This document shows, in pieces, positions 31,068 to 53,065 of a DNA stretch of 64,000 bases (positions are counted from its first letter, which is position 1; each line of letters starts with the position of its first letter). A program made the position numbers and the translations under genes. The stretch comes from Pseudobacteroides sp. (GTDB lineage Bacteria; Bacillota; Clostridia; Acetivibrionales; DSM-2933), in contig NZ_DATCTU010000033.1 in the NCBI RefSeq assembly GCF_036567765.1, positions 62,001-126,000 of the forward strand. The letters are read 5' to 3'. Below the pieces are notes generated by a model. That model saw nothing but the letters and a program-made list of their open reading frames with translations. It had not been told where the DNA came from and did no database searches.

Positions 31068-31089
31068 AAAAGCCTGATATCAGGCTTTT
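31068..31089 (-). terminator. Terminator at the end of spoIIID
   Basis: A perfect 22-bp palindrome, AAAAGCCTGAT and its complement, overlapping the spoIIID stop codon (31088-31090), followed on the minus strand by TTTTTATC. Confidence 0.75.
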
Positions 31090-31240
31090 ATTCATCCTTT
31101 TTATCTTCCTGCCTGTATTTTGATTTTGTTGCCTGACCGCCTCTTATATGCCTTTCGGCTTTGTTTTCCTCAAGAATGATCCTGACATCATTTGCAAGGT
31201 TATGATTTACCAGAACAAGTCGTTCGGTAACATCTTTGTG
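31088..31240 (-). pseudogene. spoIIID: spoIIID, 3' portion (codons 38-87), separated by the mobile element
   Basis: The minus-strand frame encodes HKDVTERLVLVNHNLANDV, then RIILEENKAERHIRGG and QATKSKYRQEDKKDE, 50 residues ending in TAA. This is the second half of the SpoIIID helix-turn-helix and the conserved basic tail of this mother-cell regulator. It has no start codon here: upstream sequence becomes the recombinase gene. Fused through the ACA core (31239-31241) to the N-terminal part at 51768-51878 it restores GISKSTV-HKDVTERL in frame. It is interrupted rather than decayed: I see no other defect. Confidence 0.88.
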
Positions 31241-32834
31241 TGCCGTCATTCGTCATTGGAACTATATCATCTAATGGAATTTCATATATCTCTAAAGGAA
31301 CTTCAACGTTTAGATTATTCTTATTGTCTACTTTTAAAACTATTTTTAGTACACCATCAGGATACACTGTTATCCTTTCTATAATTTGTTTTAAGAATGA
31401 GTTGTCCAATGCTTCACTTAAACATATGTGTTCAACCTTAGACATATAACTTGTTACTAAACTATCAATATCTACCGACAGTTTAAACATTGTCCTTGAT
31501 GTACCTTGTGCTAATTTTAATTGATTTAATTTTTCTGTTAGTGTTGATACTTCATATTTCAATTCGTCAATTCCTATTATGTCTTTCTTATACATTTCTT
31601 TATTCTTCTCTATTTCTTTATTTAGGCGAGTAATCTCAGCTTGTATTTGCTTATTATCCTTTTCAGCTATAGTATTCTTATTATGTTGAATAATTAAATT
31701 CTTAATCTCTTTGCTTATTGCTTTGATAGTCTTTGGTTTATTAATTAAAAATTGATTTAGAAACTGTAGTAAAGCATTATGTAATTCGTCTTCATCTACT
31801 ACTATATTGTTGATGCAGGCATTAACCCCTCTCGCATTCCGAATACTACATGTCCACCATTTATATGTCTTACCTTCTGCTGAATACTTCCTTTGACATC
31901 TTCTGAAACTATAACCACACTCTGAACATTTAATTAAGTTAGACAATGGATATTTAACACTATCACGTTTATTCATTAAATTAAATGATTCTTTTCTGCT
32001 TTCAAGTATTTCCTGTGCTCGATAAAATAGCTCATCAGATATAATTCTTATCTCAGGTTTTTCAACAGTAATATATTCTTCATTTGAGTATCGTTTTCTT
32101 TTGCCTGTTATATAGTCAGCAACCTCACTTTTGTGATTAACTATTTTTCCAATATAAACAGCATTTCTTAGTATTTGCGTAATAACAACTTGAGACCATT
32201 TATTTTTCTTGTTCTTTTTTGTACGTATATTACAATCATTTAGGTGTCCAGCTATTCTGGCTGTGCCCCAACTTTCATTAACATATAAATCAAATATTTT
32301 TTGTACTACACCTACCTCAATCTGATTAGGAACTAGAGTATGTTTATCAATCCTATCAAAACCAAATACAAAATTAGGTACTATTCCATCTTTTGCAGCA
32401 AGTGCTTTTCCAAACTTTACCTTTCTTGATAATCTTGCGGACTCTTCTTGTGCAAATGCTATCTGCATAGTAAGGTTAAGTTCAGTTTCTTCTTTTAATG
32501 TTTCTTGTCCATAACTTACGAATATTACATTAATACCTCTTAATTTTAATTCCCTTATAGAAACAAGAAAGTCAACAGTGTTTCTACTAAATCTTGTAAT
32601 ATCCTTGACAAGTATCGCTTCGAATGACCCTTTCCTTGCTTCGTCCATCATTCTCAAGAAATCATCTCTCTTTGTCATTGCTTTTCCAGAGATACCTTCG
32701 TCATAATATATATGAAAAAGTTCATAGTTTGGATGACTATTTACCAAGTCATTAAAAAACTTTATTTGGTTTTCAAGGCTCTCCAACTGTTCTTTTTTCT
32801 TTGTAGAAACTCGACAATAGCATGCTACTCTCAT
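31200..32834 (-). CDS. Large serine recombinase of the element
   Basis: 544 residues. The N-terminal resolvase domain has CRVSTKKKEQ with catalytic Ser10 and the DITRFSRNT arginine motif. The recombinase domain (about 165-270) starts FGFDRI. A zinc ribbon, CSECGYSFRR with the second pair around WWTCSI and ACINN, and a coiled coil (about 370-450) complete the family plan. It should cut at both spoIIID junctions and join the core. The last 12 residues (after DGT) are read from host spoIIID DNA; in the excised circle the same frame would end in a different 17-residue tail. No own promoter is obvious upstream. Confidence 0.92.
   Translation of the reverse strand: MRVACYCRVSTKKKEQLESLENQIKFFNDLVNSHPNYELFHIYYDEGISGKAMTKRDDFLRMMDEARKGSFEAILVKDITRFSRNTVDFLVSIRELKLRGINVIFVSYGQETLKEETELNLTMQIAFAQEESARLSRKVKFGKALAAKDGIVPNFVFGFDRIDKHTLVPNQIEVGVVQKIFDLYVNESWGTARIAGHLNDCNIRTKKNKKNKWSQVVITQILRNAVYIGKIVNHKSEVADYITGKRKRYSNEEYITVEKPEIRIISDELFYRAQEILESRKESFNLMNKRDSVKYPLSNLIKCSECGYSFRRCQRKYSAEGKTYKWWTCSIRNARGVNACINNIVVDEDELHNALLQFLNQFLINKPKTIKAISKEIKNLIIQHNKNTIAEKDNKQIQAEITRLNKEIEKNKEMYKKDIIGIDELKYEVSTLTEKLNQLKLAQGTSRTMFKLSVDIDSLVTSYMSKVEHICLSEALDNSFLKQIIERITVYPDGVLKIVLKVDNKNNLNVEVPLEIYEIPLDDIVPMTNDGTQRCYRTTCSGKS
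31226..31254 (-). other. Left attachment junction (element / spoIIID 3' half)
   Basis: Minus-strand sequence GACGGC-ACA-CAAAGATG: element DNA to the left of the core, spoIIID (CAC AAA GAT G, His-Lys-Asp) to the right. The core ACA is at 31239-31241. The recombinase frame runs through it. Confidence 0.78.
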
Positions 32835-32964
32835 ATGACACCTTCTTCACTTTGCATTCCATATACTAAGTACTACGTTCCATTTAATAATTATTATAAA
32901 ATACAAAAGGAGTATATTCAATATACCCCTTTAAAAATCCTATTATATTCACTTACATCGCAAC

Positions 32965-33126
32965 CTACATGGCTTTTTCACATTTTTCAAGGTCTATTAA
33001 CATTCTTTGAAACTCAGGTTTTTCAAATATCTGTTTTGCAATATTCTTAATAAGTATTTCCTCTAAAAACTTACTGGCACTTTCAGAAGAAACAATTTTT
33101 ATTTTAAGTTTATTTTTCTTATACAT
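32965..33126 (-). CDS. Small charged protein next to the recombinase
   Basis: 53 residues beginning MYKKNKLKIKIVSSESASKF, helical and basic at the N terminus, acidic later (MLIDLEKCEKAM at the end). An agggggaac ribosome site precedes ATG 33126, and the frame's 21-codon upstream extension lacks one. Position just upstream of the recombinase makes a directionality factor conceivable, but nothing in the sequence proves it. Confidence 0.5.
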   Translation of the reverse strand: MYKKNKLKIKIVSSESASKFLEEILIKNIAKQIFEKPEFQRMLIDLEKCEKAM

Positions 33127-33901
33127 TGTAATCGTTCCCCCTATAGTACAGTTTATAGGAGGACAACCTAGTATTATTACAATTTTCAAAAAAATTAATA
33201 TTGTTCCTATTTAGTAAAGCAGCAGTAGTATACTTCAAAATACAGTTGATAACATTCATTATTATACCTCCGCATCAGTTTTGAGACTGATATATGGAGT
33301 TCTTTACTTAAGTCAAATTAATTTTCAAGTTACTGTACACGGAACTTTATACTTTGAGTGTTTCCACTGCAATTAACTGTATTGAATTTATATATATACG
33401 GAATTACTCAACATACACACAAATTCCCGTATATGGATGACTGCTGTATTGAGTTCATGTATGCGTTACTCAATATATCACACTTTCTACATTCCTACTC
33501 ACTAGCTATAAAACCTGTCACACTCATAGGTTCCTTCTTTATCAAAAGTTCCTTTGTTCTTTTAAACTCGTAATATAGCATCTCTAGAGACTTTCAACTT
33601 CAATATACAAAATACTTATGTCAGGCAAATACTGTAAAAACACATTAAAAATCTTAAAAAACATCGGGATGAACAATACCAATTCTTCTTAGTGTTCATA
33701 TCAATTTATCTATCTTAAACTTCAATTTGCTTGCTTAGGCTTTAATTTATAAACAATTTTCAACATGTCAATCATTGTGTATTTGAAATTATCATGAATA
33801 AATATCGCCTTCCCTTTAGATTCAACATTTTAAAGACCTATTATTAATATGTAATAGAAAAGATTGTCGGACAATTTTATACTCCACTTTTTATTATAAT
33901 G
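33127..33901. repeat. Non-coding stretch with an imperfect repeat and an inverted repeat
   Basis: 775 bp without a credible gene. An imperfect direct repeat (CTGTATTGA...TTACTCA) occurs at 33377-33410 and 33444-33472. An inverted repeat, ATATACGGAATT (33394-33405) with AATTCCCGTATAT (33422-33434), lies across the first copy. These could be regulator or recombinase-accessory sites. The remainder is featureless AT-rich sequence. Confidence 0.45.
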
Positions 33902-34831
33902 TTACCCCATAGGTTTACAACCATCGAATGAGAAGTTCGTGATTATTTTTTCAGTGACTGTTTTGCTAAAGCCTGACTTTCTCTTCATTCTATAACTGAC
34001 ATGGAAAATACGCTTACTTCGGTATAAATTATAAATTGCAGTATTAGCATAATAAGAAAGAATAAATTTGCCCTTAATGTTACGCAACATATCCGCAAGT
34101 AAATTATGCTGTTCAAGACACACTTCATCATAATATCCTTCCTTAGAATAATAAGGTGGGTCACAATAGAATAAGGTATTAGGACTATCGTATTTCTTAA
34201 TTATATAAGAAAAGTCTCTATTGAATATAGAAACATTTTCTAATCTTTCAGACAAAGAATTAATAAGTGAAAGCCTGTTCTGATAAGTTTTTGAAAAATT
34301 CTTTCCAACTTGATGCCTTAAACTTTGTTTATTGCCATATATAGTAGTCGCAGTAAGGTAAAAATAATTTACCGCATCCTCAAGAGGACTTGCAAAATCA
34401 ATAACCTGCTTTTGCTCTTTCAATATCGAGTCGGCAATAAATAACTCTTTACATTTTAAATAGAATTCTAAAGGTTGTTTTTTCAGCACAGTAAACAAGT
34501 TACAAAGGCGTCCGTTTAAATCATTATATACTTCAACCTTGCTTTCCTGTTTTGCTAATAATACAGCACCAGTACCGCCAAATGGTTCAACATATGTAAC
34601 ATGTTCGGGCATTATCTTAATTATTCTTGAAGCCAGTGTTTTAGACTTCGTGCCTAATATAGAAAACAAGGGCTTTACTTTAATATGTTCTGCCGGCTTC
34701 GGAGCTAGAACTTCTCGAATAGCCAATGTTATAGCTTCACTGGTATTGTCAGTCAAATACTTCTTTTGCAAATTTTCAATTATCAACGGATTTGCACGAA
34801 AACTATACTTTTGTGTTTTAGTCTTGTTCAT
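33902..34831 (-). CDS. Dam-type (D12 class) adenine methyltransferase with RHH-like N terminus
   Basis: 309 residues. The D12 class motifs are present: EPFGGTG (82-88, AdoMet site) and CDPPYYS (DPPY at 224-227, catalytic), with LNGRLCNLF and the helical specificity region between. The first 45 residues (KYSFRANPLIIENLQKKYL then TSEAITLAIREVL) look like a ribbon-helix-helix DNA-binding fold, an uncommon addition. No endonuclease partner is adjacent, so it may be an orphan methylase that marks or regulates the element. aagggg lies about 16 nt before the ATG. Confidence 0.85.
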   Translation of the reverse strand: MNKTKTQKYSFRANPLIIENLQKKYLTDNTSEAITLAIREVLAPKPAEHIKVKPLFSILGTKSKTLASRIIKIMPEHVTYVEPFGGTGAVLLAKQESKVEVYNDLNGRLCNLFTVLKKQPLEFYLKCKELFIADSILKEQKQVIDFASPLEDAVNYFYLTATTIYGNKQSLRHQVGKNFSKTYQNRLSLINSLSERLENVSIFNRDFSYIIKKYDSPNTLFYCDPPYYSKEGYYDEVCLEQHNLLADMLRNIKGKFILSYYANTAIYNLYRSKRIFHVSYRMKRKSGFSKTVTEKIITNFSFDGCKPMG

Positions 34832-34884
34832 TTACTTAGATTAACCCCTTATAGGTCTGGATTTTGTGAATAACTTAATGATTT

Positions 34885-35796
34885 TTAGTTTTCAATAATC
34901 CTAAAGTCTAAATTATTTAAATTTATTATAGGAAATTTTACATAATCACTATTCTGTTCGTTTAAAATTGGCTTGCTGTATATGTAAAAAACTGCCCTTT
35001 GCCTAGACTTTGCCAACTCACTAAGCATATCCAGCCATATATTCTTTCGATAGTTTTCATTAATTATAGAGTTGGCTAAAAATATAGAACCTTTTAATTC
35101 AACCCCATCCTTAAGTATCGTATTTTTAAATGTAACTGAATAGGAATCGCTTTTGGAAATCTTGAAAATAGTTGCTTCACCCCAATATATTCTGGGATAT
35201 TTATCAATATGGCTAAAATCAAGTCCCTCAACAGGTTTGAACATTTCACCATATTGAATATTTACACCTTTTTTATTTATACAAATACAGTGTTTGTCTA
35301 AAGTACACTCAGATAAGTATATTTCGTACTTTGAAACTAATGGCTTAATTGTATTATACTCAGGCTGTCTTGTTACATTCTCTGACCTTTGAATATATGT
35401 CCGCTTCTTTCTTTCAATATGAGTTGCTTCTTTGTCATCGCCATCTGAACTTTTACTTTGAGCTGTTTTCTTTGGTTTATCCGATAAAAATATATCAGTC
35501 TGAGAATCTATATACTTATTTCCAATACCCAATCTACTGTCAGGAACTTTTATTGTTCCATCTTTATTTTCTGAAAGCTCACAATCTGGATGGTGTTTGC
35601 CAACAAGTCGGAAATGCGGTAGTTTTTTCATTGCATATCTTGGTTTATCAATGTTTGCACATGTTAGCTTAGCAGAGCATTTGTAATCTGGGCACTCAAA
35701 ATTTCTTTTATCCTTAATAACCCCTGACCAATAAAGGTCATACGCTTTCTCAGCATCAACAATTTGTTCACAATCCAAACTATATGCCTCGTCCAT
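34885..35796 (-). CDS. CoiA-like Cys/His protein
   Basis: 303 residues from ATG 35796 (gaggtgt upstream). The N-terminal part has a Cys/His constellation, FECPDYKCSAKLTCAN, then HFRLVGKHHPDCEL, as in the N-terminal domain of CoiA-like proteins and related predicted DNA-processing proteins. The middle (about 85-135) is low complexity with KKTAQSKSSDGDDKEA. The C-terminal about 160 residues are mixed alpha/beta and unrecognised. The usual CoiA nuclease motif is not evident to me. It is 53 nt upstream of the methylase gene and probably co-transcribed. Confidence 0.5.
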   Translation of the reverse strand: MDEAYSLDCEQIVDAEKAYDLYWSGVIKDKRNFECPDYKCSAKLTCANIDKPRYAMKKLPHFRLVGKHHPDCELSENKDGTIKVPDSRLGIGNKYIDSQTDIFLSDKPKKTAQSKSSDGDDKEATHIERKKRTYIQRSENVTRQPEYNTIKPLVSKYEIYLSECTLDKHCICINKKGVNIQYGEMFKPVEGLDFSHIDKYPRIYWGEATIFKISKSDSYSVTFKNTILKDGVELKGSIFLANSIINENYRKNIWLDMLSELAKSRQRAVFYIYSKPILNEQNSDYVKFPIINLNNLDFRIIEN

Positions 35797-36162
35797 ATTG
35801 TTACACCTCATTTCATAGAATTGTTAAGTACTTGGAATTATTTTATCATATACAATTCAGTTACACTATATATAAAGATGTTAATACACATACAAAACAT
35901 ATTAAAACGACAAAAAGAAAAACTATTAACGTTTTGTAAATACTGTTAAAAGAAAATAATTACAGGTTTAAACGTTTTTATAAAAACATATTTCAATTTT
36001 TATCTAACTTATTTCAATTATATAAAGAGTTGTTTCGATTTCAGCGTATCTTAAAACGATTTTAACCTGTAAAACAAGAAAAATTTAGAGGGTGGATATT
36101 TGTTGTAATCCACCCTCTCCATCAATTACAAATCTTATTGAAATTCTATTACAGCTATCTCT
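35797..36162. other. Intergenic region, 366 bp
   Basis: No gene. Contains the terminator of the upstream surface-protein operon (36087-36118) and an AT-rich stretch that must hold the promoter of the CoiA-like/methylase pair; I could not pick a convincing -35/-10 pair. Confidence 0.5.
36081..36118 (-). terminator. Terminator of the surface-protein operon
   Basis: AGAGGGTGGAT and ATCCACCCTCT form an 11-bp perfect stem with a 10-nt loop; on the minus strand it is followed by AAATTTTTCTTGTTTT. Confidence 0.8.
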
Positions 36163-38226
36163 TTACCCTAATTTAAAAGTAAAGTAAAGCCATTCTACTA
36201 GGGCATAAATTGTCCCACTTATTATAAATATACCCAATAACACTCCACCCATAAATATAAATATCATCGTCTTTAGTCTTATGAACCTCTTACCGCTACC
36301 TACGAATGGAGTAGTTGAATTTGCGTCAGGTGCAACATTTAGTCGTCCAAAAGTCAATGTAGGTAAAAACTTAAACTCTATTATATTATTTACCATGTCT
36401 CCAAAAAAGGCTAAGAGTAGAAATACTGAGTATACTATAATTAATATACCTACAAATGTTATAAACCCTCTGTAACCCTCAGCAAACTTAAAGGCTGATT
36501 TACTCTCCATTTCTTGCTTCATTACTGATAGTCTTTGCATTTCTTCCCAACTGAGGCTTTTATCCCAATTTTCAGGAAATAAACCTCTTAGCGTGGCAAC
36601 TATTTCCCTCATAGGTATTTGGTGCTCCGCTAAAAAGTCCTTTGCTTCGCTTGTCTCCAACCACTTTAATAATTGAGTATCATTGGCATAATATGTGTCA
36701 AGAACCACACAATACCCAACTTGCTCATTATATTCTATATCCAACCCCTGTTCACCTGAAGGTAATGTTGTTAACAAATATTTTAACTTCATATCATAAT
36801 ATGTTTTAAAATACTCCACTCCAGAATCTAACGTGTCTTGATCTATATTTTCAAACTTATTAAACCTTATAGTTCTACCTGTTGGTAGTAAAATGCCGCT
36901 CCTAGACCTAACTGCTTCCTTAAATGAAGTAATTACAAGTGAAGGTGTACCCCAATCTGCAATAGCTTTATCTGACTTAGCTTTTTGTGGTTGGATGTAA
37001 ATGTAATCCCTGCTTAAACCGTACTTAGCATAGTCTCCTAGTTCTTCATCTCGACCATTAGGATTAGTTTTATACAGTTTACTTGTACCTATATCAATTT
37101 TAAGATTATCTGAAAGCTTTACATCTTCTGAAAAACTATAACTACCATTATTGTTAATTAATTTTGCAGGTACAGAAACAGGGTATCTCATATTAACCAT
37201 AAAATTTGGGTCTTTCTTTTCACCGTTGAACAAAACATCCTGATATCCTCCAGAATCTTTCAAAATTTCTTTTGTAGACTTTGTTAGTCCTCTAGGCTCA
37301 GTGTTTTTTACAAAGTACTGATAGTCAGGATTGATAGCAATATAACTTCCTTTGTATGCTTCATTTACTTTAACAATATCAGTCTTTATATCCTTAGATT
37401 CACCGTAAAATGGATGTATGTGCCTGTTAAACACAAATGATCCGGAGTTCTTACTTTTTATCTGTTGCAAAGGGTCTCCGTCAGAACCTATAAAATCAGA
37501 TAAGCTCATTCTTTTATTAGGTGTAACGTCATATATTGAAAATGCATATGGTACTGCCGACCACCCCGTTGCTTCTTTACCTAACTTAGCCATGTTAAAT
37601 AACTCTTCATTAGTAACAACTGAATCACTTCCAGAAGAAGGCGACCTGTTACCAATTTCAAATGGGTAAGTAGTACCACCAATAACCATTTCAAATGTAG
37701 GCATACCAATTGTACAGTCAGTACATATTTTCTTTGTTACTTGGTTTTCACCAAAGCCTTCAACTTCTTCTGTAAAACTATTAGAACGTAACCGCTTCAT
37801 ACTCGGAGTTTGTAAACTACTAAAGTAGTTAAAAAAGTTACCTATCGAGCCTAAATTAACCTGAGTTATAGAGTCCATACCCCTTGAGAACTCATTAGTA
37901 ACATAACCTGTCATGTCACCTATAAAAGTCTTATTTAAACCCTGCAAGCTAGCTGTTGACTCGTGAACTCCACCGTTTCTTACCTCTTTTATTACATTTT
38001 TACTTCCGCTTTTTTCAATTATGTAATGTGGCTCTGACGATGAGTTCTCGTAATACCATATATTTTGTTGTGAGTTATACTCATGCTTTTTATTGTACGA
38101 TGAACTTCCATGTCCTGCACCTTCAAGTTCACTATAGTACATTTTATAAGGCTCACTACCTACTGCAAAGCAAGTACTACCTAAAAGCAATAATGCAATA
38201 AATAATAGGACAAAAAACTTCTTCAT
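36163..38226 (-). CDS. Exported membrane-anchored protein of the surface operon
   Basis: 687 residues. A signal peptide (MKKFFVLLFIALLLLGSTCFA) is followed by a long extracellular region rich in Ser, Gly, Asn and Tyr, with a short metal-like Cys pair (CTDC, around residue 168). Two C-terminal membrane segments (about 590-615 and 660-685) flank a roughly 45-residue loop, so the protein is exported and tethered. No family recognised. aaggaggagg precedes ATG 38226. It is the last gene of the unit that begins at 44763. Confidence 0.6.
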   Translation of the reverse strand: MKKFFVLLFIALLLLGSTCFAVGSEPYKMYYSELEGAGHGSSSYNKKHEYNSQQNIWYYENSSSEPHYIIEKSGSKNVIKEVRNGGVHESTASLQGLNKTFIGDMTGYVTNEFSRGMDSITQVNLGSIGNFFNYFSSLQTPSMKRLRSNSFTEEVEGFGENQVTKKICTDCTIGMPTFEMVIGGTTYPFEIGNRSPSSGSDSVVTNEELFNMAKLGKEATGWSAVPYAFSIYDVTPNKRMSLSDFIGSDGDPLQQIKSKNSGSFVFNRHIHPFYGESKDIKTDIVKVNEAYKGSYIAINPDYQYFVKNTEPRGLTKSTKEILKDSGGYQDVLFNGEKKDPNFMVNMRYPVSVPAKLINNNGSYSFSEDVKLSDNLKIDIGTSKLYKTNPNGRDEELGDYAKYGLSRDYIYIQPQKAKSDKAIADWGTPSLVITSFKEAVRSRSGILLPTGRTIRFNKFENIDQDTLDSGVEYFKTYYDMKLKYLLTTLPSGEQGLDIEYNEQVGYCVVLDTYYANDTQLLKWLETSEAKDFLAEHQIPMREIVATLRGLFPENWDKSLSWEEMQRLSVMKQEMESKSAFKFAEGYRGFITFVGILIIVYSVFLLLAFFGDMVNNIIEFKFLPTLTFGRLNVAPDANSTTPFVGSGKRFIRLKTMIFIFMGGVLLGIFIISGTIYALVEWLYFTFKLG

Positions 38227-38242
38227 TTAAACCTCCTCCTTA

Positions 38243-38437
38243 TTAGTTAGTTGTAATTCTTGATAAAGAAAAAATAACGTTATTGTGCTCCACTGTTTTT
38301 CCTTCTTTCAAATCTGCTATAAGTTTTTCAGTCTCAATTTCAGTAAAAAACTCCTGCAATAGATATGAAAAGAAATTTAAAGAAATTTCCATGATCTTAC
38401 CAGTTTTTTTGATAACTTCAACAAAATACAATTCCAT
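38243..38437 (-). CDS. Small soluble protein of the surface operon
   Basis: 64 residues, no signal or membrane segment, helical with an acidic middle (FFTEIETEKLIADLKEGKTV). aggaggatg precedes ATG 38437. It lies 16 nt upstream of the 687-residue gene. Unknown family. Confidence 0.5.
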   Translation of the reverse strand: MELYFVEVIKKTGKIMEISLNFFSYLLQEFFTEIETEKLIADLKEGKTVEHNNVIFSLSRITTN

Positions 38438-38459
38438 AAAACATCCTCCTAATATTGTT

Positions 38460-38687
38460 TTATTTTAAACATATAGTAGACAAAAAGAGTGCATAAGTCA
38501 GCAAAAAGTAGAGTATAGTGCTTATAATAAGCACTATTGATAGAATAAAAATGTATTTGTGTTTTACATTAGGAACTTTGTTTGTAAATATATTTGCTAT
38601 AATGAGACTCAACGAAGTGGTTACAAGCGGAGAAAAAATTCCGATTGGTTGAATACTAATTGCACTTAAATATTCTAAAAAATTCAT
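38460..38687 (-). CDS. Small two-pass membrane protein of the surface operon
   Basis: 75 residues from ATG 38687 (ggaggtgttaact upstream). Two hydrophobic segments (about 13-35 and 46-70) are joined by a short basic loop NKVPNVKHK. The size and topology recall small pilin-like or channel subunits, but I cannot assign a family. It starts 15 nt after the 1376-residue gene. Confidence 0.55.
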   Translation of the reverse strand: MNFLEYLSAISIQPIGIFSPLVTTSLSLIIANIFTNKVPNVKHKYIFILSIVLIISTILYFLLTYALFLSTICLK

Positions 38688-38702
38688 AGTTAACACCTCC
38701 AA

Positions 38703-42833: not shown

Positions 42834-42851
42834 GATTTTAACCCCTTTCTT

Positions 42852-44156: not shown

Positions 44157-44169
44157 TTTAAAACCCCCT

Positions 44170-44763
44170 TTAGTTATTTTGAAAAAACTGATTAAACAAT
44201 TTAACTTTTAATGTGGTAAGCTCAGAAGGTACAGAAAATAGCTCACTTACTAAAAAAGCCAGTTTATCCTCATTTAGTACTTCGAGCTCCTTCTGTATTT
44301 CCCGAAAAGTTTGCTTGCGTAAAAAACTAATTTCCGCAGTTAATTCATCAAAGCAATATGCTCTGCTGTGAGTATTTGGTATTAGGGGAAATACACCTGG
44401 TTGAAAGTACATACTTGGATTGACGTTACATTTGACTAAGAAAAATTGAAATTCAGCTGCTAAAAACTCTTCTTCTGAACCATCAGCTATTAAGTGGATT
44501 AAATTGCTTCCAATAACATTACGAATTACTTGTGAAGCTCTTGCTAATAATAACCGCACTCCACTTGTGCTGATACCAAGACTGTCTGCTGCTTTTGAAT
44601 TTCCATGCTGTAAAGCTATGCTTACCTTTTTGGCAAACTTACGATTCTGAGTCCAACTTCCACTTGAAATGTAATCTTGAATTTCTTGTAGAAGCTCTAC
44701 CCTTTCTAAAGATAAGTCTTTTCTTGCTAGTGCATCTTTCAACTCTCTAAAAATTGACTTCAA
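44170..44763 (-). CDS. Sigma-factor-like HTH protein, first gene of the surface operon
   Basis: 197 residues with a TTG start at 44763, 7 nt after aggaggtg. The central segment SIALQHGNSKAADSLGISTSG and VRLLLARASQVIRNVIG reads like a sigma-70 region 4 helix-turn-helix. The rest is helical and unrecognised. It is 13 nt upstream of the SLH gene, so I infer a dedicated regulator of the surface operon. It could equally be a phage-type late regulator. Confidence 0.55.
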   Translation of the reverse strand: MKSIFRELKDALARKDLSLERVELLQEIQDYISSGSWTQNRKFAKKVSIALQHGNSKAADSLGISTSGVRLLLARASQVIRNVIGSNLIHLIADGSEEEFLAAEFQFFLVKCNVNPSMYFQPGVFPLIPNTHSRAYCFDELTAEISFLRKQTFREIQKELEVLNEDKLAFLVSELFSVPSELTTLKVKLFNQFFQNN

Positions 44764-44817
44764 CTCTTGACACCTCCTGAATTAATTAATTTAATGACTT
44801 TTATGTAACTTTTTTGC

Positions 44818-44866
44818 AAAAAGCAACACAAGAAGCAAATTTAAAAAGATAAATGTGTTGCTTTTT
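44818..44866 (-). promoter_or_regulatory. Terminator-like hairpin in the surface operon leader
   Basis: AAAAAGCAACACA (44818-44830) and TGTGTTGCTTTTT (44854-44866) are perfect complements over 13 bp with a 23-nt loop. On the minus strand it ends in TTTTTGC only about 55 nt before the first gene. With no gene just upstream, this looks like an attenuator or transcription-blocking element. Confidence 0.6.
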
Positions 44867-45252
44867 CAAAAATTATATTTTCAGGTTAGACGCATAGAAA
44901 CTAAAGTCACTAAAAGTTACAAAAATTATTAAAAAACTTTCAAATAAATATAACTTTTTCTTTTGTATCTTTTCATTCAAAAATATTTTGTATCAGAAAA
45001 TTAGTCACAAAGATTAATTTTTTATATTCTATTTTTTTTATAAACGCAGAAATTTAAGGACTTTTCAGCTAAAAAATATTTGTTACGCTAAATTAACCTA
45101 AAATAAGTCACAAATTCAGTCACAAGATTTCTACTACATCGTAACCAAATTTTATGAAAATAATTCCTGTAACAAATCTACTGTACTGTCTAAATTCTTT
45201 GTAGACTGAGTTTACAAAACGCTGTGTCATGTAAATTCAAGAAGAAATGGAC

Positions 45253-45286
45253 ACAAAAAAAACAGGTGATTGCTTTGTCACCTGTT
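45253..45286 (-). terminator. Terminator of the toxin/immunity-like pair
   Basis: AACAGGTGA and TCACCTGTT (9-bp stem, 8-nt loop) followed on the minus strand by TTTTTTTTG. Confidence 0.85.
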
Positions 45287-45330
45287 CCAATACCGCATTC
45301 TACTATATTAAATTCAAATATACAATATGA

Positions 45331-45666
45331 CTATTTGTTTTCTTCATCAATCATCTTAAGTGCAGTTGCGATTTGTGGGAAATCGTTTTGTCTACAATTA
45401 TTATCTGTTATTTCCTTTAGTGTAAACTGCTCAATCTTGCCGCCAACTTGCCTTTCATATTCAAATACTTTTTTATTATAAGTTACAACGACACCATATT
45501 CATTCATTTCTTCATCTTCCATAAAAGAAACTAATAATAATTCGGCTATGTCAAACCCCTTTTCAATTAATATAGACCTAAGTTCATCCCAATCTGAATC
45601 AGTCCTAATGTAATCCGTTAACTCATTAATATCCTGTATATAATTCTTTTCTTGTGTAGTAAACAT
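45331..45666 (-). CDS. Probable immunity protein
   Basis: 111 residues, acidic, soluble, beginning MFTTQEKNYIQDINELTDYI and predicted to be mixed alpha/beta (YGVVVTYNKKVFEYERQVGG). It lies 18 nt downstream of the deaminase-like toxin gene with its own taggaggggtt site, followed by a strong terminator. No family recognised. Small acidic proteins directly downstream of polymorphic toxins are usually their immunity proteins, and this is the basis of the call. Confidence 0.5.
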   Translation of the reverse strand: MFTTQEKNYIQDINELTDYIRTDSDWDELRSILIEKGFDIAELLLVSFMEDEEMNEYGVVVTYNKKVFEYERQVGGKIEQFTLKEITDNNCRQNDFPQIATALKMIDEENK

Positions 45667-45684
45667 AAATAACCCCTCCTAAAA

Positions 45685-46641
45685 TCACTTTTTTAATGGT
45701 GTAACCATTTTATTCAATAGACCTTTTGACATAGCGACTTCTTGACAGACTGGACACATGTCCCTTGTTGCTCCCATTGCTAAAATTTCTACTTCTTGTT
45801 CTTCTGCTGCTCTCATCAAAGATTGTTCTGCGTCATTAAGGCGGTTAATACTATCACCTTCAGGTACTTTATTCTTAATAACCCTGTCATTTTTACGAAT
45901 ATCAGTACGTACTATGCCTTTTTGTCCTGCGGAGCTAACCCAAAATTCTTTTTTACCATCTTTGGTTCTAACAAGTGCTACACCAAAAGTTGTCCTCTTT
46001 TTTTCTTCCTCTGACATAACATTTTTAATATCATCAACTCTTGCTTGCACTGCACGCTTGTCTTCCAGTGTAGGAGCTTGATTATTAAATTGCATTTCTT
46101 TCTTACTTGCAATAAGCCGATCAGTGAAACTGATTCCACCTACAGTAGTTTTTCCAAGACTTTTATCTTCTAATACTTGTTCTTCCTGTGTTTGAGGTAA
46201 AATCTTAGTTCCTTTAATCTCTGGAGACTTCATTTCTGCTTTGGCTGTCTGCTGTGCAGATGAAGTGCATTCAACATCAGTTCCAGCTAACTGCCTAACA
46301 AAAAGCGAAAAGTATCCAACCCCTGTATTATTTGAGAACCGTTCCGAGTAGTCTACTACAAAAGCTTTGGAAAAGTTAACCTTTCGTACCACTTGATTGG
46401 ACTGGGTTTCCTCAACAGTTATGTCCTTATAACAATTAGGGTCAGTTGCTGGAATTAATGCCCACTCATAAAGTGGTATTGTCTTTTCGTCTGCGTCGAT
46501 TTTACCATTAATTATCATAGAGTTTATTGGGTAAGTTCTTCTACTGGTATAATCATCTGATGGTGGTTCTACATAAAAAGTGACAGATTGCACACATTTC
46601 TCTAAGGTTATACTGCCTAAAATAGATACCTTAAAATTCAT
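45685..46641 (-). CDS. TssD/Hcp-like N terminus fused to a deaminase-like C terminus
   Basis: 318 residues. The first about 125 residues have the strand pattern and landmarks of TssD/Hcp-like tube proteins of Firmicutes and Bacteroidetes (TIPLYEWALIP, then RKVNFSKAFVVDYSERF). A low-complexity linker follows (about 130-210). The C terminus ends NDAEQSLMRAA (Asp270-Ala-Glu272), then CPVC (Cys296, Cys299), the layout of the cytidine deaminase fold used in polymorphic toxins. The usual zinc His of HAE is Asp here. I infer an effector delivered by a contractile or tube system, or a vestige of one. No sheath or baseplate genes are nearby. Confidence 0.55.
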   Translation of the reverse strand: MNFKVSILGSITLEKCVQSVTFYVEPPSDDYTSRRTYPINSMIINGKIDADEKTIPLYEWALIPATDPNCYKDITVEETQSNQVVRKVNFSKAFVVDYSERFSNNTGVGYFSLFVRQLAGTDVECTSSAQQTAKAEMKSPEIKGTKILPQTQEEQVLEDKSLGKTTVGGISFTDRLIASKKEMQFNNQAPTLEDKRAVQARVDDIKNVMSEEEKKRTTFGVALVRTKDGKKEFWVSSAGQKGIVRTDIRKNDRVIKNKVPEGDSINRLNDAEQSLMRAAEEQEVEILAMGATRDMCPVCQEVAMSKGLLNKMVTPLKK

Positions 46642-46718
46642 TATGTCCCCTCACTATCAATATTTAATTTATCAATCCTCCCTAGTCAGTATAAATTTTA
46701 ACATATATAGAAACAAAA

Positions 46719-47285
46719 TCATACAGTTTTTTCAAGCTCTTTCACTAACTTGTAAAAGGTACTCTTCTTTAAATTTAAAAGTCTCATAGCTTCTACTGCC
46801 TGTATATCGTTTTTCTTCCAATCCTGATAAACTTTACAAAAGTCTTTCGGATACTCTGTTTTAGGTCTTCCTAAATGCTTTCCCTTAGCTTTAGCAATGG
46901 CAATGCCTTCCTTTTGCCTTTGGAGAATATACTCCCTTTCAAGTTCAGCTAAAGCACCAAAAAGTGTAAGTACAAACTTGCCTTGTGGTGTGTTTGTGTC
47001 AATGCTCTCCTTTAAACTAACAAGTCCAACCCCCTTTTCTTGTAATTGTTCAACTATAAAAAGAAGGTCTTTTGTACTTCTAGCAAGTCTGCTGATACTC
47101 TCAATGTAAAGAATATCACCTTCACGAATATAGTCCAACATCTTTTTAAGTTCTGCTCTATCTGTATCCTTTCCACTTACCTTTTCAAGAAAAACTTTTT
47201 CAACCCCTATTTCTTGTAAGGCAAATTCCTGTCTATCTGTATTTTGCTCATATGAACTTACACGAATATAACCTATCTTGGACAT
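46719..47285 (-). CDS. Small serine recombinase (resolvase/invertase)
   Basis: 188 residues. All catalytic features are present: IRVSSYEQ with Ser10, ISRLARSTKDL with both arginines, EREYI, and a C-terminal Hin-type helix-turn-helix (about 140-185, AVEAMRLLNLKKSTFYKLV). It could resolve multimers of the excised circle or invert a segment. I saw no obvious pair of inverted crossover sites beside it. agaggggg precedes ATG 47285. Confidence 0.88.
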   Translation of the reverse strand: MSKIGYIRVSSYEQNTDRQEFALQEIGVEKVFLEKVSGKDTDRAELKKMLDYIREGDILYIESISRLARSTKDLLFIVEQLQEKGVGLVSLKESIDTNTPQGKFVLTLFGALAELEREYILQRQKEGIAIAKAKGKHLGRPKTEYPKDFCKVYQDWKKNDIQAVEAMRLLNLKKSTFYKLVKELEKTV

Positions 47286-47672
47286 TTTATACAGCCCCCT
47301 CTATTCAAATTTATTATTTATCGTTTATATAAAAATGTCCGTAAAATTCACTTATATTTATCGAACGTTTAAAAAAGCAATAATAAACCTTTATAGACTT
47401 GAATTTGCGACGTTTATTATAGCTTACTTTTGTAGCCACTGGTCTGCATTCACAAATCACAAATCAACCGCCAAAATTGCCCTTTAAAACCGCTTATTTA
47501 CTTTCTGAAGAAAACTACCCAAAAACAAAATAAAAACCCCTACGGGCAAATTAACGAAACCGTAAAGGCAAATAGACCACGAACGAGGATATTAATTTTA
47601 AACATAACTAACCGCCCATGCAATGTAGGCTCTTATAGCTCGCTCTAAACTACTGAATTTATTCAAAGGCAA
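47286..47672. other. Intergenic region, 387 bp
   Basis: No convincing gene, terminator or promoter. There is no ribosome-site-led frame on either strand. Confidence 0.45.
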
Positions 47673-47831
47673 CTACCACATTAAACTCTCTTCATCCCAA
47701 TTAGTACCACAACATGGTGTCTGTTCCCCATCTTCTGCACAATTTATACACAAAATGTCACCACAAAAAGGACATTTCTTATACTTTTCATCCTTCTCAA
47801 TAGTACGTCCGCAACTATCACAAGTTAACAT
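47673..47831 (-). CDS. Small zinc-ribbon protein
   Basis: 52 residues: MLTCDSCGRTIEKDEKYKKC, then PFCGDILCINCAEDGEQ and TPCCGTNWDEESLMW. CxxC pairs at 4/7, 20/23 and 28/31, and Cys40-Cys41, make one or two zinc-ribbon knuckles. aaggagatg lies 8 nt before ATG 47831. It follows the HipA-like kinase gene by 61 nt on the same strand. Too short for standard gene finding but well supported. Confidence 0.65.
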   Translation of the reverse strand: MLTCDSCGRTIEKDEKYKKCPFCGDILCINCAEDGEQTPCCGTNWDEESLMW

Positions 47832-47892
47832 ACTTAATCATCTCCTTATTTATACTTGTTACCCCTCCAATTTATAGAATACACCGTCACGC

Positions 47893-49020
47893 TTAAGACT
47901 TATCCAATAAAACCCCAGCTCGATGTCTTACTAACTGGGTTAAGACTGATAAACGCTCTTCCGATAAGTTGTAATTTGAATGTCTCTTAAATTCGAAGCC
48001 TAATAACTTCCTCAATCTGCCTCTTTGGGTAGAAGTCAAATAACCCCTCACTACGTCCAAGTTTGTCGCAGGAATAAATGCAAAGGTCATTTGCCTTGAC
48101 TGCAAATACTCGTCCAAGTTCAGCAAATCACTGTCAAGTCCGTAATTTAGCAACGACACCCCATTGTCAAATATAGGTGCAACATCTAACAGTTCGCCAG
48201 TTGTGTTGCTTCTTATAAACCCGAAATTATTAAAGTGCCTATCCTCATTTATTACTACAGCGTCAAAAGCCATTAGGTCAAGTAGCTTGTTTTTAGTATT
48301 GTCACTTGAGTTGGAAAGTATTTCTGATACTGGCATGTTCCCAAAAACATCAAAAGCCGAAATAAAAGAGAGACTCTCAGAAGTAAATAATTTACAGGTT
48401 GAACATAAAACCCCCTTCCACCGCTCAAGGTCATATGTCACAGCATCCAACCCCATAGCTAAGGCTACCTGACTGGCATAATACTCCGAGTAGGGTTCTT
48501 TGCCCGCATTAGAATACCCTTCTGTCCCAGCTTTGTATAACAAAACCTCGTTGTTAATCCTTCTCCAACACTTTCTCAACATTCCATTCGTTGTAGGCTC
48601 AGGCGAACTTATAACCCCACTTACTTTGGTAATGTGCCCTGTAAACGCAGATAATGCTAAAACCTCAGAAAAGTTATTGTCGTATAGGTTGTAGTCCTTC
48701 CATAAGTAGCTAGAATCATGAGGGACTACCCAATAATCATCTACAAGACTTAACCCTAGTGTGATACCTAATAGAGATATTAGTCTAGGCTCGTTATTTC
48801 CTACTAACGAGCCTAAAATACTCTCGACAAATGCCCTGTTCTTAGGTACAAATCTGTGCTGTAACCAAGAAATTAGGGTATCCACTTTAAAGTTGTATGG
48901 TAATAGTACGTCGTTAACCAATATGTTGTTTACTTGATAAGTAATCTCACCAAGTGCATTCCATGATAAATTGAAGTCGATTAACGCTATGTCCTTCTTT
49001 TTAAGAATAAAATGTCTCAT
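47893..49020 (-). CDS. HipA/CtkA-like protein kinase
   Basis: 375 residues. The kinase lobe shows a nucleotide-binding segment around EVLLYKAGTEGYSNAGKEPY (about 155-175), the catalytic loop NEDRHFNNFG (about 256-265, with Asp-Arg-His and Asn) and the metal-binding FDNG (about 285). These are the HipA-family catalytic signatures. The N-terminal about 130 residues differ from E. coli HipA. ggag precedes ATG 49020. Together with the small upstream gene it may act as a toxin-type or signalling kinase. Confidence 0.75.
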   Translation of the reverse strand: MRHFILKKKDIALIDFNLSWNALGEITYQVNNILVNDVLLPYNFKVDTLISWLQHRFVPKNRAFVESILGSLVGNNEPRLISLLGITLGLSLVDDYWVVPHDSSYLWKDYNLYDNNFSEVLALSAFTGHITKVSGVISSPEPTTNGMLRKCWRRINNEVLLYKAGTEGYSNAGKEPYSEYYASQVALAMGLDAVTYDLERWKGVLCSTCKLFTSESLSFISAFDVFGNMPVSEILSNSSDNTKNKLLDLMAFDAVVINEDRHFNNFGFIRSNTTGELLDVAPIFDNGVSLLNYGLDSDLLNLDEYLQSRQMTFAFIPATNLDVVRGYLTSTQRGRLRKLLGFEFKRHSNYNLSEERLSVLTQLVRHRAGVLLDKS

Positions 49021-49076
49021 AAATACACTCCTGCTTGACTGAACTAGTATAATCTTTCGGTGGATTTGAAATCAAA

Positions 49077-49283
49077 CTACTTCTTTCGATATTTCTGAGC
49101 AGATACTACGAATCCTAGACGCTCAACATCAGGTATTTTACCGCTTTCAACATCAACAGATAACCACGTTCCCAATAATGCAGGTGGCATGGTAATGATG
49201 TCACGCAAGTAAAATTCGCTACCCGACTCTAAATCATCAATCCTGCGAATCACCTGTTTATATAGTTCTTCATATGTGCCCAT
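49077..49283 (-). CDS. DUF1413-like small protein, partner of the HipA-like kinase
   Basis: 68 residues: MGTYEELYKQVIRRIDDLES, then FYLRDIITMPPALLGTWLS and a basic end. The pattern ELYxQVxxRIxxLxxGxxFxLRD matches DUF1413-type proteins, small proteins often found beside HipA-like genes. It is 56 nt upstream of the kinase and likely its antitoxin or substrate adaptor. aggaggattatt precedes the ATG. Confidence 0.6.
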   Translation of the reverse strand: MGTYEELYKQVIRRIDDLESGSEFYLRDIITMPPALLGTWLSVDVESGKIPDVERLGFVVSAQKYRKK

Positions 49284-49386
49284 AATAATCCTCCTAGTCC
49301 ACTTAAATTTATTATATATGTAATATGTATTCAGTTTAACATATAGTTAATAACTGTTGCACTTTTAGTAATACCACTTATACTTG

Positions 49387-49729
49387 TCACATTTTGTACT
49401 GCAAAGGCGACACCGCTAACAATATTATTCGCAAGTTACCCTTCGAATTTAACGAGAAATATGATGTCTCTAGAAAATATTTTTTGTTAAACAACCAAAG
49501 TGGGTTTTCTATTCCGTACTTGTCACATAGAAAATTAACGGATGCTACAACAGATGTTGCCTGAATTTGGGTAAACTTACTGAAATTCAAGCTCTTTTTC
49601 CACTGCAAGTATCCTTTCAGCATAACTTGTTTTGGTACTGTAAAATATGTCTAAAAAATCTCCAAAACAAATCCAGAAGTTGCCGAAATTGTCGTTGGAT
49701 TGTAACACCATATCATTTAAGTTAATCAT
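49387..49729 (-). pseudogene. Frame-shifted HipA-module partner gene
   Basis: A first frame starts at ATG 49729 (aagggg upstream) and gives MINLNDMVLQSNDNFGNFW to LAVEKELEFQ before a stop at 49577. A second frame then continues FSKFTQIQATSVVASVNFLC, with YFSLNSKGNLRIILLAVSP near its end at 49387. Read together through a shift near 49580-49620 they resemble one roughly 115-residue protein of the kind encoded upstream of DUF1413/HipA-like pairs (…W.F...YFL..PYF.LN.KG.LR..LL..SP). The end is also shorter than I would expect. A sequencing slip or programmed frameshift are alternatives. Confidence 0.5.
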
Positions 49730-49797
49730 CAGAACCCCTTATTATTTCTAATGTTTAACTATATGTTTATTTATTATAATAAGTATACAAATTAAAA

Positions 49798-50010
49798 TCA
49801 TAAACCGCAAGATTTTAGCGACACAATAACAAAAACTGGTATCCAAAGTAAAAAGCCAGCTTTTATAACTGTACTATATTTCGTATGAGACACAGAACGA
49901 TTCCCAAGAGTTCGTTGAAATATCGCAAAGATTAAACTAAAAATAAATGTGCATCCAAAAGAAATTACCCCTGAACAGATTAAAATATTTGCAAATGACA
50001 TGTTATCCAA
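49798..50010 (-). CDS. Small two-pass membrane protein
   Basis: 70 residues, TTG start at 50010 with aaggagg 8 nt upstream. Two hydrophobic segments (about 8-31 and 50-68) flank a polar loop with RTLGNRSVSHTKY. It is the first minus-strand gene leaving the repressor switch, so it probably starts the lytic-like direction of the element. Family not recognised. Confidence 0.55.
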   Translation of the reverse strand: MDNMSFANILICSGVISFGCTFIFSLIFAIFQRTLGNRSVSHTKYSTVIKAGFLLWIPVFVIVSLKSCGL

Positions 50011-50040
50011 TGTGCAGTCCTCCTTTTATATGTTGCTATA

Positions 50041-50143
50041 AATGTAATTTCCACTTATAGTTTAATTTAGTAGCAATAAAATTACAAGTATAAATTACAC
50101 TTATAATTATATCAACATTTAATATATTAGTGTAATTTACACT
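50041..50143. promoter_or_regulatory. Three-operator switch between divergent genes
   Basis: Three copies of a 15-bp dyad built on AGTGTAA and TTACACT with one central base: 50129-50143 (perfect), 50087-50101 (one mismatch) and 50041-50055 (two mismatches). They are 46 and 42 bp apart, about four helical turns, between the XRE repressor (plus) and the minus-strand genes. This is the layout of a phage-like repressor switch. Confidence 0.75.
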
Positions 50144-50198
50144 TATGTTGTGTTTTAACGACCAGTAAAACTTGTTACAGTTTACTGGGGTGATAAAA

Positions 50199-50534
50199 AT
50201 GCAAATTGACTATAAAAAACTTGGCAGTAGAATTCGTATTGTAAGAGAAAAGAAAAGGTTAACTCAAGAACAACTTGCTGAAATGGTAGAACTGTCAAAT
50301 AACTATATAAGTAATATTGAGTTAAACCGTTCTATACCAAGCCTTGATACATTAGTCAAAATTTGCAATGCTTTGGAGGTTACACCTGACTATATTTTAA
50401 TTGATTCAATTTATACATCAAAAGAATATATAAAAGACGAAATTGCGAAGAATCTTAACAAGTGCAACGAAAAAAGCATAAAAATTATATCAAAGTTTAT
50501 TAGTCTGATCCTTGAAGAACAAGATTTACCATAA
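50199..50534 (+). CDS. XRE-family repressor of the element
   Basis: 111 residues from ATG 50199 (ggggtgat 6 nt upstream). The N-terminal helix-turn-helix is LGSRIRIVREKKRLTQEQLA, then ELSNNYISNIELNRSIPSLD and ICNALEVTPDYIL, a standard cI/Xre fold. The C-terminal about 40 residues are helical and probably dimerise. It is the only plus-strand gene in the element and faces three matching operators, so it is the likely master repressor. No LexA-type cleavage domain is present. Confidence 0.85.
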   Translation: MQIDYKKLGSRIRIVREKKRLTQEQLAEMVELSNNYISNIELNRSIPSLDTLVKICNALEVTPDYILIDSIYTSKEYIKDEIAKNLNKCNEKSIKIISKFISLILEEQDLP

Positions 50535-50603
50535 AGTGAGCTTAAATACAAAAATAACCCCTCTACTTAACTGTAGCGGAGTTATTCAAGTGGATGTGAT
50601 ATT

Positions 50604-51296
50604 CTACTTCTTGGTACTATTTATAATACCAGCATCCGTTAATAGTTCATGAAATGCGTATTGGCTGTAAGCATACCATTTACAAGCATTAGTTCCTCCG
50701 TAGTTTATACTATCAGAGTGTTTACAAGCAACAGGAGTGACGTCTTTCTGAAATAACCCCTGTGAACCAAAAAGCTGTATAACCTTGTTCATAAACATAT
50801 CAAATGTATCAATTACCCTATAATAACAAGTATCATTGTATTTTGCATAACGTCCATTACAAAATGAAGTTGTTTGCTTTTCAAGTTCCGCAAGTAATTT
50901 TATAAATTCAAAAACAAAGTCTCCTCTTATTGTTGATGTATCTATATACGGTTCTGAAATAGATTTAAAAAATATACCTTGGCTTCTTAAAAAACTGATA
51001 AACTCTAATAGTTCTTGGACAGATGATGCCATACTTTTAATGTCCATAGCAACCACAACATCTCCCTTATTTAGTACTTGAAGCAAAGAGGCATACCCTG
51101 GCAAGTCAGCATTTATTGGTAACTGTACATATTTCCGTATATTTTTATCAACAAATATGTTCTGTTTTGGTACTATTGCTAATAATGCAATAACCTTTTC
51201 ATTTAAAATCTTTTCGTTATTCTCCTTTGCTAACTTCATTTGATAATATGTAGCCTGTGGCAATATAAAAGTTCGAACATACCCATACATTTTCAT
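50604..51296 (-). CDS. Catalytically dead serine-recombinase-like protein
   Basis: 230 residues. The chain follows a resolvase domain (GYVR; LLQVLNKGDVVVAMDI; VQELLEFISFLRSQGIFFKS; DTSTIRGDFVFEFIKLLAELE). The catalytic Ser position is Phe10, and the RLxRS arginine motif reads SMASS. A roughly 40-residue insertion follows the first strand. The C-terminal about 80 residues hold two Cys and differ from the Hin-type HTH. Strand transfer is therefore unlikely. It lies 149 bp from the element-borne SpoIIID gene, so a role in controlling excision is possible. Confidence 0.75.
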   Translation of the reverse strand: MKMYGYVRTFILPQATYYQMKLAKENNEKILNEKVIALLAIVPKQNIFVDKNIRKYVQLPINADLPGYASLLQVLNKGDVVVAMDIKSMASSVQELLEFISFLRSQGIFFKSISEPYIDTSTIRGDFVFEFIKLLAELEKQTTSFCNGRYAKYNDTCYYRVIDTFDMFMNKVIQLFGSQGLFQKDVTPVACKHSDSINYGGTNACKWYAYSQYAFHELLTDAGIINSTKK

Positions 51297-51392
51297 AAAT
51301 AATTCACTCCAGTCATATTTTTATTTTATAGTGTTGACTATAAAGGAATATGTCACTGAATAAAGTACCCAACGTCTTAAAAATAAAGACTT

Positions 51393-51432
51393 AAAAAAAA
51401 GTCACCATGAGTAACCCCTCATAGAGACTTTT
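51393..51432 (-). terminator. Terminator of the element-borne spoIIID
   Basis: On the minus strand AAAAGTC...ATGAG and CTCAT...GACTTTT form a two-part stem, then TTTTAAG. It closes a short unit that begins at the host spoIIID promoter. Confidence 0.75.
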
Positions 51433-51444
51433 ATAAAACAATTA

Positions 51445-51696
51445 TTAGGTACTTATTTTGTATTTATTACGTGTTGCATTTCCACCCCTGATATGTCTTT
51501 CAGCTTTATTAATTTCTAAAATGATTTTTACTTCTTCTGCAAGCTGCGGATATAAATCCATGAGTCGTTCAACAATGTCCTTATGAACTGTGGACTTACT
51601 AATGCCGAAATTTTTTGCCGTATCTCTAACGGTAGCTTTATTAGCTATGGTATAATTAGCTAGAGACAAAACCCTTTCACTTATATACTCTTTCAT
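51445..51696 (-). CDS. Intact SpoIIID paralogue carried by the element
   Basis: 83 residues: MKEYISERVLSLANYTIANK, then GISKSTVHKDIVERLMDLY and AERHIRGGNATRNKYKIST. All SpoIIID landmarks are present, including the recognition helix GISKSTVHKD, identical to the host protein, and the basic tail AERHIRGG. By hand alignment about 54 of 83 residues match the reconstructed host SpoIIID. ATG 51696 overlaps the TGA of the truncated host frame (ATGA) and has aaggggg 10 nt upstream. Transcription should come from the host spoIIID promoter. I infer that it supplies SpoIIID function while the host gene is split. Confidence 0.88.
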   Translation of the reverse strand: MKEYISERVLSLANYTIANKATVRDTAKNFGISKSTVHKDIVERLMDLYPQLAEEVKIILEINKAERHIRGGNATRNKYKIST

Positions 51697-51878
51697 AGTC
51701 GTTTTTCCCCCTTAATCAATTTTGAAGAAAAATGACCAATTCCTTTCCTTTTTATAAGTGCTGTTTGTACAGTACTTTTGCTTATACCAAACTTTTTTGC
51801 AGCTGCTCTAACGGTTGCCTTGTTTTCAATAATAAAATTGGCCAAATCTACAGCACGCTCTTCTATGTACTCCTTCAA
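51693..51878 (-). pseudogene. spoIIID: spoIIID, 5' portion (codons 1-37) with an element-encoded tail
   Basis: The native start is probably TTG 51878, 9 nt after agggggg. Codons 1-37 read MKEYIEERAVDLANFIIENK then FGISKSTV, the N-terminal half of SpoIIID, up to the ACA core at 51766-51768. Beyond it the frame enters the element and adds QTALIKRKGIGHFSSKLIKG-EKRL, 24 foreign residues, ending at 51693. The hybrid lacks the rest of the helix-turn-helix and the basic tail and is probably inactive. The longer frame from GTG 51899 has no ribosome site. Confidence 0.85.
51752..51782 (-). other. Right attachment junction (spoIIID 5' half / element)
   Basis: Minus-strand sequence AGTACTGT-ACA-AACAGCAC: spoIIID (Ser-Thr-Val) before the core, element after. 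The core ACA is at 51766-51768. A longer shared ACAAA exists when shifted, but that register would not restore the reading frame. Confidence 0.78.
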
Positions 51879-53061: not shown

Positions 53062-53065
53062 AAAA

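Follow-up and report, generated by a model that had tools for sequence, protein, structure and literature searches.

How could a cell begin to excise an element from spoIIID before SpoIIID exists? This problem is posed by a 64,000-nucleotide stretch of a Pseudobacteroides sp. genome (NCBI RefSeq assembly GCF_036567765.1, contig NZ_DATCTU010000033.1, positions 62,001 to 126,000 of the forward strand; hereafter the window), in which the host gene spoIIID is split by an element carrying a large serine recombinase. SpoIIID controls the excision of the best-known intervening element, skin, from sigK; with an element in spoIIID, the DNA switch would come one step sooner. We consider it likely, from sequence comparisons, that the window element belongs to a site-specific family dedicated to spoIIID, that members of this family are excised in the mother cell in most relatives, and that the window element additionally carries its own spoIIID gene (spoIIID-2) driven by the host promoter.

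We compared the window with a genome of the same genus, G001 (one contig of 6,878,816 bp), in which spoIIID is uninterrupted at the same place and provides an exact empty site. The features of the split locus are as follows.

29,906–30,958, minus strand: mbl, the host gene downstream of spoIIID, beside the 3' half (88.7% identical to G001)
31,098–31,241, minus strand: 3' half of the host gene, His codon through stop TAA, without a start or promoter of its own (profile match; alignment to G001)
31,200–32,834, minus strand: large serine recombinase of 544 aa with Resolvase, Recombinase and zinc-ribbon domains, whose C-terminus overlaps the host 3' half
31,239–31,241, no strand: shared core ACA on the attR side, with the crossover dinucleotide CA (G001 alignment; comparison of split loci)
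31,242–51,765, no strand: inserted element of 20,524 bp (empty-site alignment with G001)
51,766–51,768, no strand: shared core ACA on the attL side (G001 alignment; comparison of split loci)
51,766–51,899, minus strand: 5' half of the host gene, running from its GTG through the Val-His codons and closing with the shared ACA (translation; PF12116 positions 1–43; alignment to the intact spoIIID of G001)

Window positions 29,892–31,241 and 51,766–52,013 aligned to adjoining stretches of G001 with an overlap of 3 bp (ACA). Because both flanks meet in G001 with this overlap, the insert spans exactly 31,242–51,765. The GC content of the element was 33.9%, versus 36.3% for the flanks. When the halves were joined at ACA, a single open frame was obtained, with 94 residues from the GTG or approximately 87 from the LKEY start. 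An earlier note on this DNA had claimed that an element of approximately 20.5 kb splits spoIIID, that ACA is found at both junctions and joins the halves in frame, that a large serine recombinase lies at one end, and that mbl lies beside the 3' half; all of these claims held, and G001 supplied the comparison with a related genome lacking the element that the note had called for. On the host side next to the element, window positions 52,192–54,330 encode a restriction enzyme, a small helix-turn-helix regulator and a cytosine methyltransferase.

An assembly artefact could produce such a split, and the window genome is a draft of 136 contigs. However, one contig holds the insert together with both flanks, the empty site is present in the relative G001, and the same split recurs in other genomes, including the single-contig genome G030. 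This recurrence makes an artefact very unlikely, and we give this explanation practically no credence.

Across the order, genomes G030, G021, G013, G029 and G032 contained only the two halves of spoIIID, without an intact copy, and relatives of the recombinase (E ≤ 1e-60) occurred in all six split genomes but in 0 of 52 others. The class was surveyed with an evenly drawn sample of 391 genomes, 280 of which matched PF12116. Besides the window's genome, 14 genomes of the sample lacked a full-length PF12116 match, and both halves were found in 10 of these 14. The 5' half was frame-shifted in two of these 10 (G294 and G360). These belong to two species of one genus, and the frameshift (locus L069 in G294, C27:1–183) lies in an A-rich stretch before the Phe-Gly-Ile codons; it is perhaps a shared error, a pseudogene or a recoding site.

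A scan of named genomes was then made with an alignment of eleven family recombinases. Among the 80 best loci, a spoIIID half adjoined the recombinase in 76. These loci included those of Blautia sp. An81, Clostridium sp. Marseille-P3244, Mordavella massiliensis, Anaerobacterium chartisolvens, Ruminiclostridium sufflavum and many uncultured gut Clostridia. When 48 such genomes were checked with PF12116, halves were present, in most cases both, and were approximately 5 kb to 60 kb apart when they lay on one contig. A full-length SpoIIID-like gene was found elsewhere in only two of the 48 (G447 and G451) and in none of the remaining 46. The full-length SpoIIID-like genes in G447, G451 and G487 (L183–L185) were considered as element-borne replacements and rejected, as they are diverged paralogues that do not lie behind the junction.

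The run shared by attL and attR contained the CA of the His codon (in STVH) in 17 of 17 split loci, and the intersection of these runs was exactly CA, as a serine recombinase acting on a central dinucleotide would be expected to leave. Beyond CA, the element arms are imperfect inverted repeats, as is usual for attP. The window locus has in-frame halves of a sporulation gene, an adjacent large serine recombinase, and a short direct repeat with an empty site, all of them features of skin-like elements. The likeness to skin drawn by the earlier note is supported well outside this locus: spoIIID is cut at the same base pair in many Clostridia, which have no intact spoIIID left. The best reading of these comparisons is that spoIIID-intervening elements form a widespread class of skin-like element, representing a new target for a known kind of element.

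Individual loci of the family showed further arrangements. In G480 (L103), the family recombinase abuts a diverged SpoIIID-like 3' half while a full-length spoIIID is present in the same genome; the target is perhaps a paralogue. The spoIIID element of G030 is 65 kb long and encodes at locus L035 (C1:3644000-3663999), as judged by eye only, a 1,037-aa Cas9-looking protein with Cas1- and Cas2-like open reading frames (ORFs). In G478, two spoIIID elements are apparently in tandem (L181 on C21 and L182 on C20), the first recombinase running through an attP-like site into the second left end. We had considered L081 of G478 as a captured circle junction; its left ends are only 84% identical, making tandem elements more likely. 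In G007 (L043, C1:588661-592674), an intact spoIIID is followed by RloA/RloB-like genes and then a decayed second 3' half. The sequence downstream of this decayed half repeats that of the intact gene; here the gene may have been repaired first and the recombinase of the element lost afterwards.

We then asked what keeps the halves intact. The detached 3' halves, which have neither start nor promoter, were open in 73 of 73 cases collected, and their median ratio of nonsynonymous to synonymous substitution rates (dN/dS) was 0.13 over 268 pairs, indicating purifying selection. Because most of these genomes have no other spoIIID copy, rejoining best explains why a detached half stays under selection, and completing a spore probably requires that the element first be excised. 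In the window, the two host halves differed from G001 by 12 synonymous and 0 nonsynonymous codons and by 15 and 2, respectively, without relaxation. In 48 loci, the recombinase has beside it a small ORF of one family, with the motif xIxFxNPN; the CD1234 gene of the C. difficile skin element makes this ORF, by analogy, a fair candidate for a recombination directionality factor (RDF). The window has a related ORF.

32,965–33,126, minus strand: 53-aa ORF upstream of the recombinase, candidate RDF by predicted function

This ORF is 44–45% identical to the ORFs that immediately precede the recombinase gene in G013 and in the virus contig L151. The sequence ahead of the candidate RDFs was inspected by eye for a SpoIIID box or a sigma-E promoter; conserved stretches exist there in the gut group, but their sigma-E match was too weak to support one.

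The window genome offers a second instance of this type of arrangement. Its sigK is also split (contig C112:33507-37969, locus L180) by a 3.7-kb element with its own large serine recombinase, only 24.6% identical to that of the window, and a 69-aa ORF just upstream. Because sigK is split by an element with its own recombinase, a regime of developmental excision is plausible in this host, which probably already lives with it.

The window element differs in carrying a complete spoIIID directly behind the host 5' half, which the earlier note had missed.

51,405–51,424, minus strand: terminator-like hairpin and T run directly after spoIIID-2 (pattern match only)
51,445–51,696, minus strand: spoIIID-2, complete, element-borne, 83 aa, with a Shine-Dalgarno sequence GGGGG just upstream (PF12116; structure 2L0K match)
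51,693–51,899, minus strand: truncated host ORF in the integrated state, 68 aa, whose TGA stop overlaps the spoIIID-2 ATG (ORF list, sequence reading)

The spoIIID-2 product matched PF12116 over its full length with 129.7 bits (cut-off 27), placing it in the SpoIIID family, and its best match among solved structures was B. subtilis SpoIIID (2L0K, E 9e-24). The start of spoIIID-2 and the stop of the truncated host ORF form an ATGA overlap. Because only approximately 70 bp separates spoIIID-2 from the attachment site, transcription of the integrated gene most likely starts at the promoter of host spoIIID. The region upstream of host spoIIID is common to the window and G001. In the excised circle, the recombinase frame would stop at a TAA 15 nt ahead of the spoIIID-2 ATG. 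Translational coupling of this kind would have a precedent, since translation of B. subtilis spoIIID reportedly requires translation of a small upstream ORF (Decatur 1997, cited in PMC5595907).

The origin of spoIIID-2 was assessed by its identity to other copies. It is 66% identical to host SpoIIID and at most 71% identical to orthologues of the order, whereas these orthologues are approximately 80% identical to host SpoIIID; by these identities, spoIIID-2 was not recently copied from host spoIIID. Another contig of the window genome encodes a third SpoIIID-like paralogue (71 bits), which is common to G001 and G054. Searches for spoIIID-2 in viral contigs found none, and GenBank matches labelled as phage were rejected as such, as they resemble ordinary bacterial contigs.

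The earlier note had held that excision is needed to restore the gene, and had named a second intact host spoIIID as a finding that would speak against this. The need for excision stands in relatives without an intact copy and is weakened here, where the element has a full-length spoIIID placed for the host promoter. A second intact gene is formally present as spoIIID-2, but it is borne by the element and not by the host. We also applied a narrower definition of our own, outside the published one, by which an obligatory gene-reconstituting element leaves no other functional spoIIID copy in the genome; the window genome has spoIIID-2, whereas 46 of the 48 relatives have none.

The split, empty site, crossover, association of recombinase with spoIIID, absence of other copies in most genomes, constraint on the detached halves and layout of spoIIID-2 were read from the sequence, and with them we propose the following mechanism. 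The large serine recombinase would split the host gene by placing the element within the conserved His codon of the SpoIIID DNA-binding helix, at its CA. In most relatives, excision in the mother cell by the recombinase and a small directionality factor would rebuild spoIIID, as occurs for skin in sigK; because no other spoIIID is present there, excision would be obligatory. In the integrated window element, spoIIID-2 would be transcribed from the host spoIIID promoter and translated through coupling to the truncated host ORF, so that SpoIIID activity would survive integration, and in the excised circle it would come to follow the stop codon of the recombinase gene. Excision of skin in C. difficile requires sigma-E and SpoIIID, which act through the RDF gene (PMC5025042). 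Because skin excision there needs SpoIIID itself, an element inside spoIIID would face circularity, and by this analogy most members of the family must use a control of excision that is independent of SpoIIID. The window element may use spoIIID-2 to break the circularity, or may spare the host the need for excision.

Other explanations of the window locus were weighed against this mechanism. If excision here were purely skin-like, spoIIID-2 would be incidental cargo and the host gene would still have to be rejoined in the mother cell. The intact and conserved host halves and the intact recombinase and candidate RDF agree with this account, as do the relatives without a second copy, which must work in this way; however, a full-length spoIIID sits in an ATGA overlap behind the host promoter, and we regard the account as unlikely, though worth serious consideration. 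At the other extreme, spoIIID-2 may have taken over entirely, with excision lost or irrelevant and the host halves a fossil that has not yet decayed. The layout of spoIIID-2 with host promoter, Shine-Dalgarno sequence and terminator would suit a takeover, and G007, with its intact spoIIID beside a decayed 3' half, possibly made a similar escape, but no decay is seen in the recombinase, candidate RDF or 3' half of the window, and we doubt this explanation. The insertions might also be simple knock-outs in genomes that are asporogenous or sporulate without SpoIIID, given that SpoIIID is not absolutely required for C. difficile sporulation (PMC5025042). Against this stand the detached halves, which are open and constrained across many taxa, and a recombinase clade tied to one site; in addition, C. 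cellulolyticum H10, which is probably G030, has been assayed for heat-resistant spores (PMC3936895). Inactivation is thus improbable.

Several observations weigh against the mechanism that we prefer, in which a dedicated, excisable element here also supplies its own spoIIID. A few split genomes (G294 and G360) have a shifted frame in the 5' half. The joined attB was absent from the window assembly, as vegetative DNA would lead one to expect, and neither an excised chromosome nor a circle was seen. Upstream of the window recombinase and small ORF, no sigma-E promoter could be recognised with conviction. As spoIIID-2 is more diverged than the orthologues, its function may differ. Finally, the constraint on the window's 3' half may only reflect a recent insertion, as low divergence would fit that as well as continued excision.

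The remaining cargo of the element was annotated as follows.

33,902–34,831, minus strand: D12 class adenine DNA methyltransferase
46,719–47,285, minus strand: small serine resolvase/invertase
47,893–49,020, minus strand: HipA-like kinase, weak match (PADLOC PDC-M03A)
50,604–51,296, minus strand: degenerate resolvase-like protein

In addition, a 318-aa protein at 45,685–46,641 showed a C-terminal deaminase-like motif by eye and an N-terminal TssD/Hcp match below threshold. No phage structural matches were found among the window proteins searched (Pfam, PHROGs), unlike in a complete prophage.

Free relatives of the recombination module were found among IMG/VR contigs classified as viral (L151–L153, L154 and L157–L159; up to 125 kb), which encode recombinases of the spoIIID family; in these contigs, the attP next to the 3' end of the recombinase gene is unsplit. 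The family forms one tree, in which the window recombinase lies next to L071 (G013), L072 and the virus contigs L151–L153. The attP right arm of L151, ACTTATAAAAAGGAACGG, matches that of the window, ACTTATAAAAAGGAAAGG, and a 55-aa ORF just upstream of the L151 recombinase is 45% identical to the window's 53-aa ORF. No spoIIID was found in the seven virus records with related recombinases. Because virus contigs carry the family recombinase, an attP and a related small ORF, the recombination module is common to the window element and mobile, probably phage, DNA.

These results bear on how spore formers are annotated and studied. Genomes with halves only (10 to 14 of the 280 with any spoIIID match) may have spoIIID listed as missing in annotations, and the presence of cultured species among the split ones leaves the idea open to direct testing. 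Since the window element brings a replacement for the gene that it breaks, it offers a natural experiment on what a parasite of a developmental gene gives its host in return. More tentatively, and at some risk of overreach, spoIIID might be one of the main sites of programmed DNA rearrangement in Clostridia, with a dedicated recombinase family cutting it at a single dinucleotide and with many gut and cellulolytic species rebuilding this mother-cell regulator by excision. The window's spoIIID-2 might then be switched between two promoters by integration state, acting before the excision that restores host SpoIIID and possibly triggering it.

In the open-licence literature on intervening elements, prophages and serine recombinases, we found no description of spoIIID as an interrupted gene; subscription journals may contain one. 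Several marked genes, including spoIIID, were listed in a 2012 survey as missing in one or two genomes, for which a frameshift or possible sequencing error was blamed (PMC3533761). In 2023, the genes known to be interrupted besides yabG were given as sigK, spsM, spoVFB and gerE (PMC10747680).

Known systems share parts of this arrangement, and some offset the damage of their own integration. Prophages and islands in icd or tRNA genes repair their target by homology at the gene end; the window element would instead set a whole diverged gene in translational coupling. The clostridial phages phi6013, phiCP51 and phi3626 encode SpoIIID (PMC5027557; PHROG 11726) and are likewise mobile DNA with spoIIID. 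They differ in that phi3626 reportedly integrates in guaA, and in that PMC5027557 does not describe a spoIIID copy replacing the interrupted spoIIID. The elements gin (gerE), SPbeta (spsM), vfbin (spoVFB) and yin (yabG) are likewise recombinase elements in mother-cell sporulation genes that are excised to rebuild the gene; their targets are other genes, and yin was reported as unique to one strain (PMC10747680), whereas the spoIIID family occurs in many species. The closest likeness is to the C. difficile skin element in sigK (recombinase CD1231; RDF CD1234, 72 aa; PMC5025042), also a serine-recombinase element in a mother-cell regulator, in which the recombinase gene immediately precedes the 3' half, excision repairs the gene in frame and the element encodes a small RDF. 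The window element differs from skin in that its target, spoIIID, acts one step earlier and in that it carries a copy of the gene that it splits.

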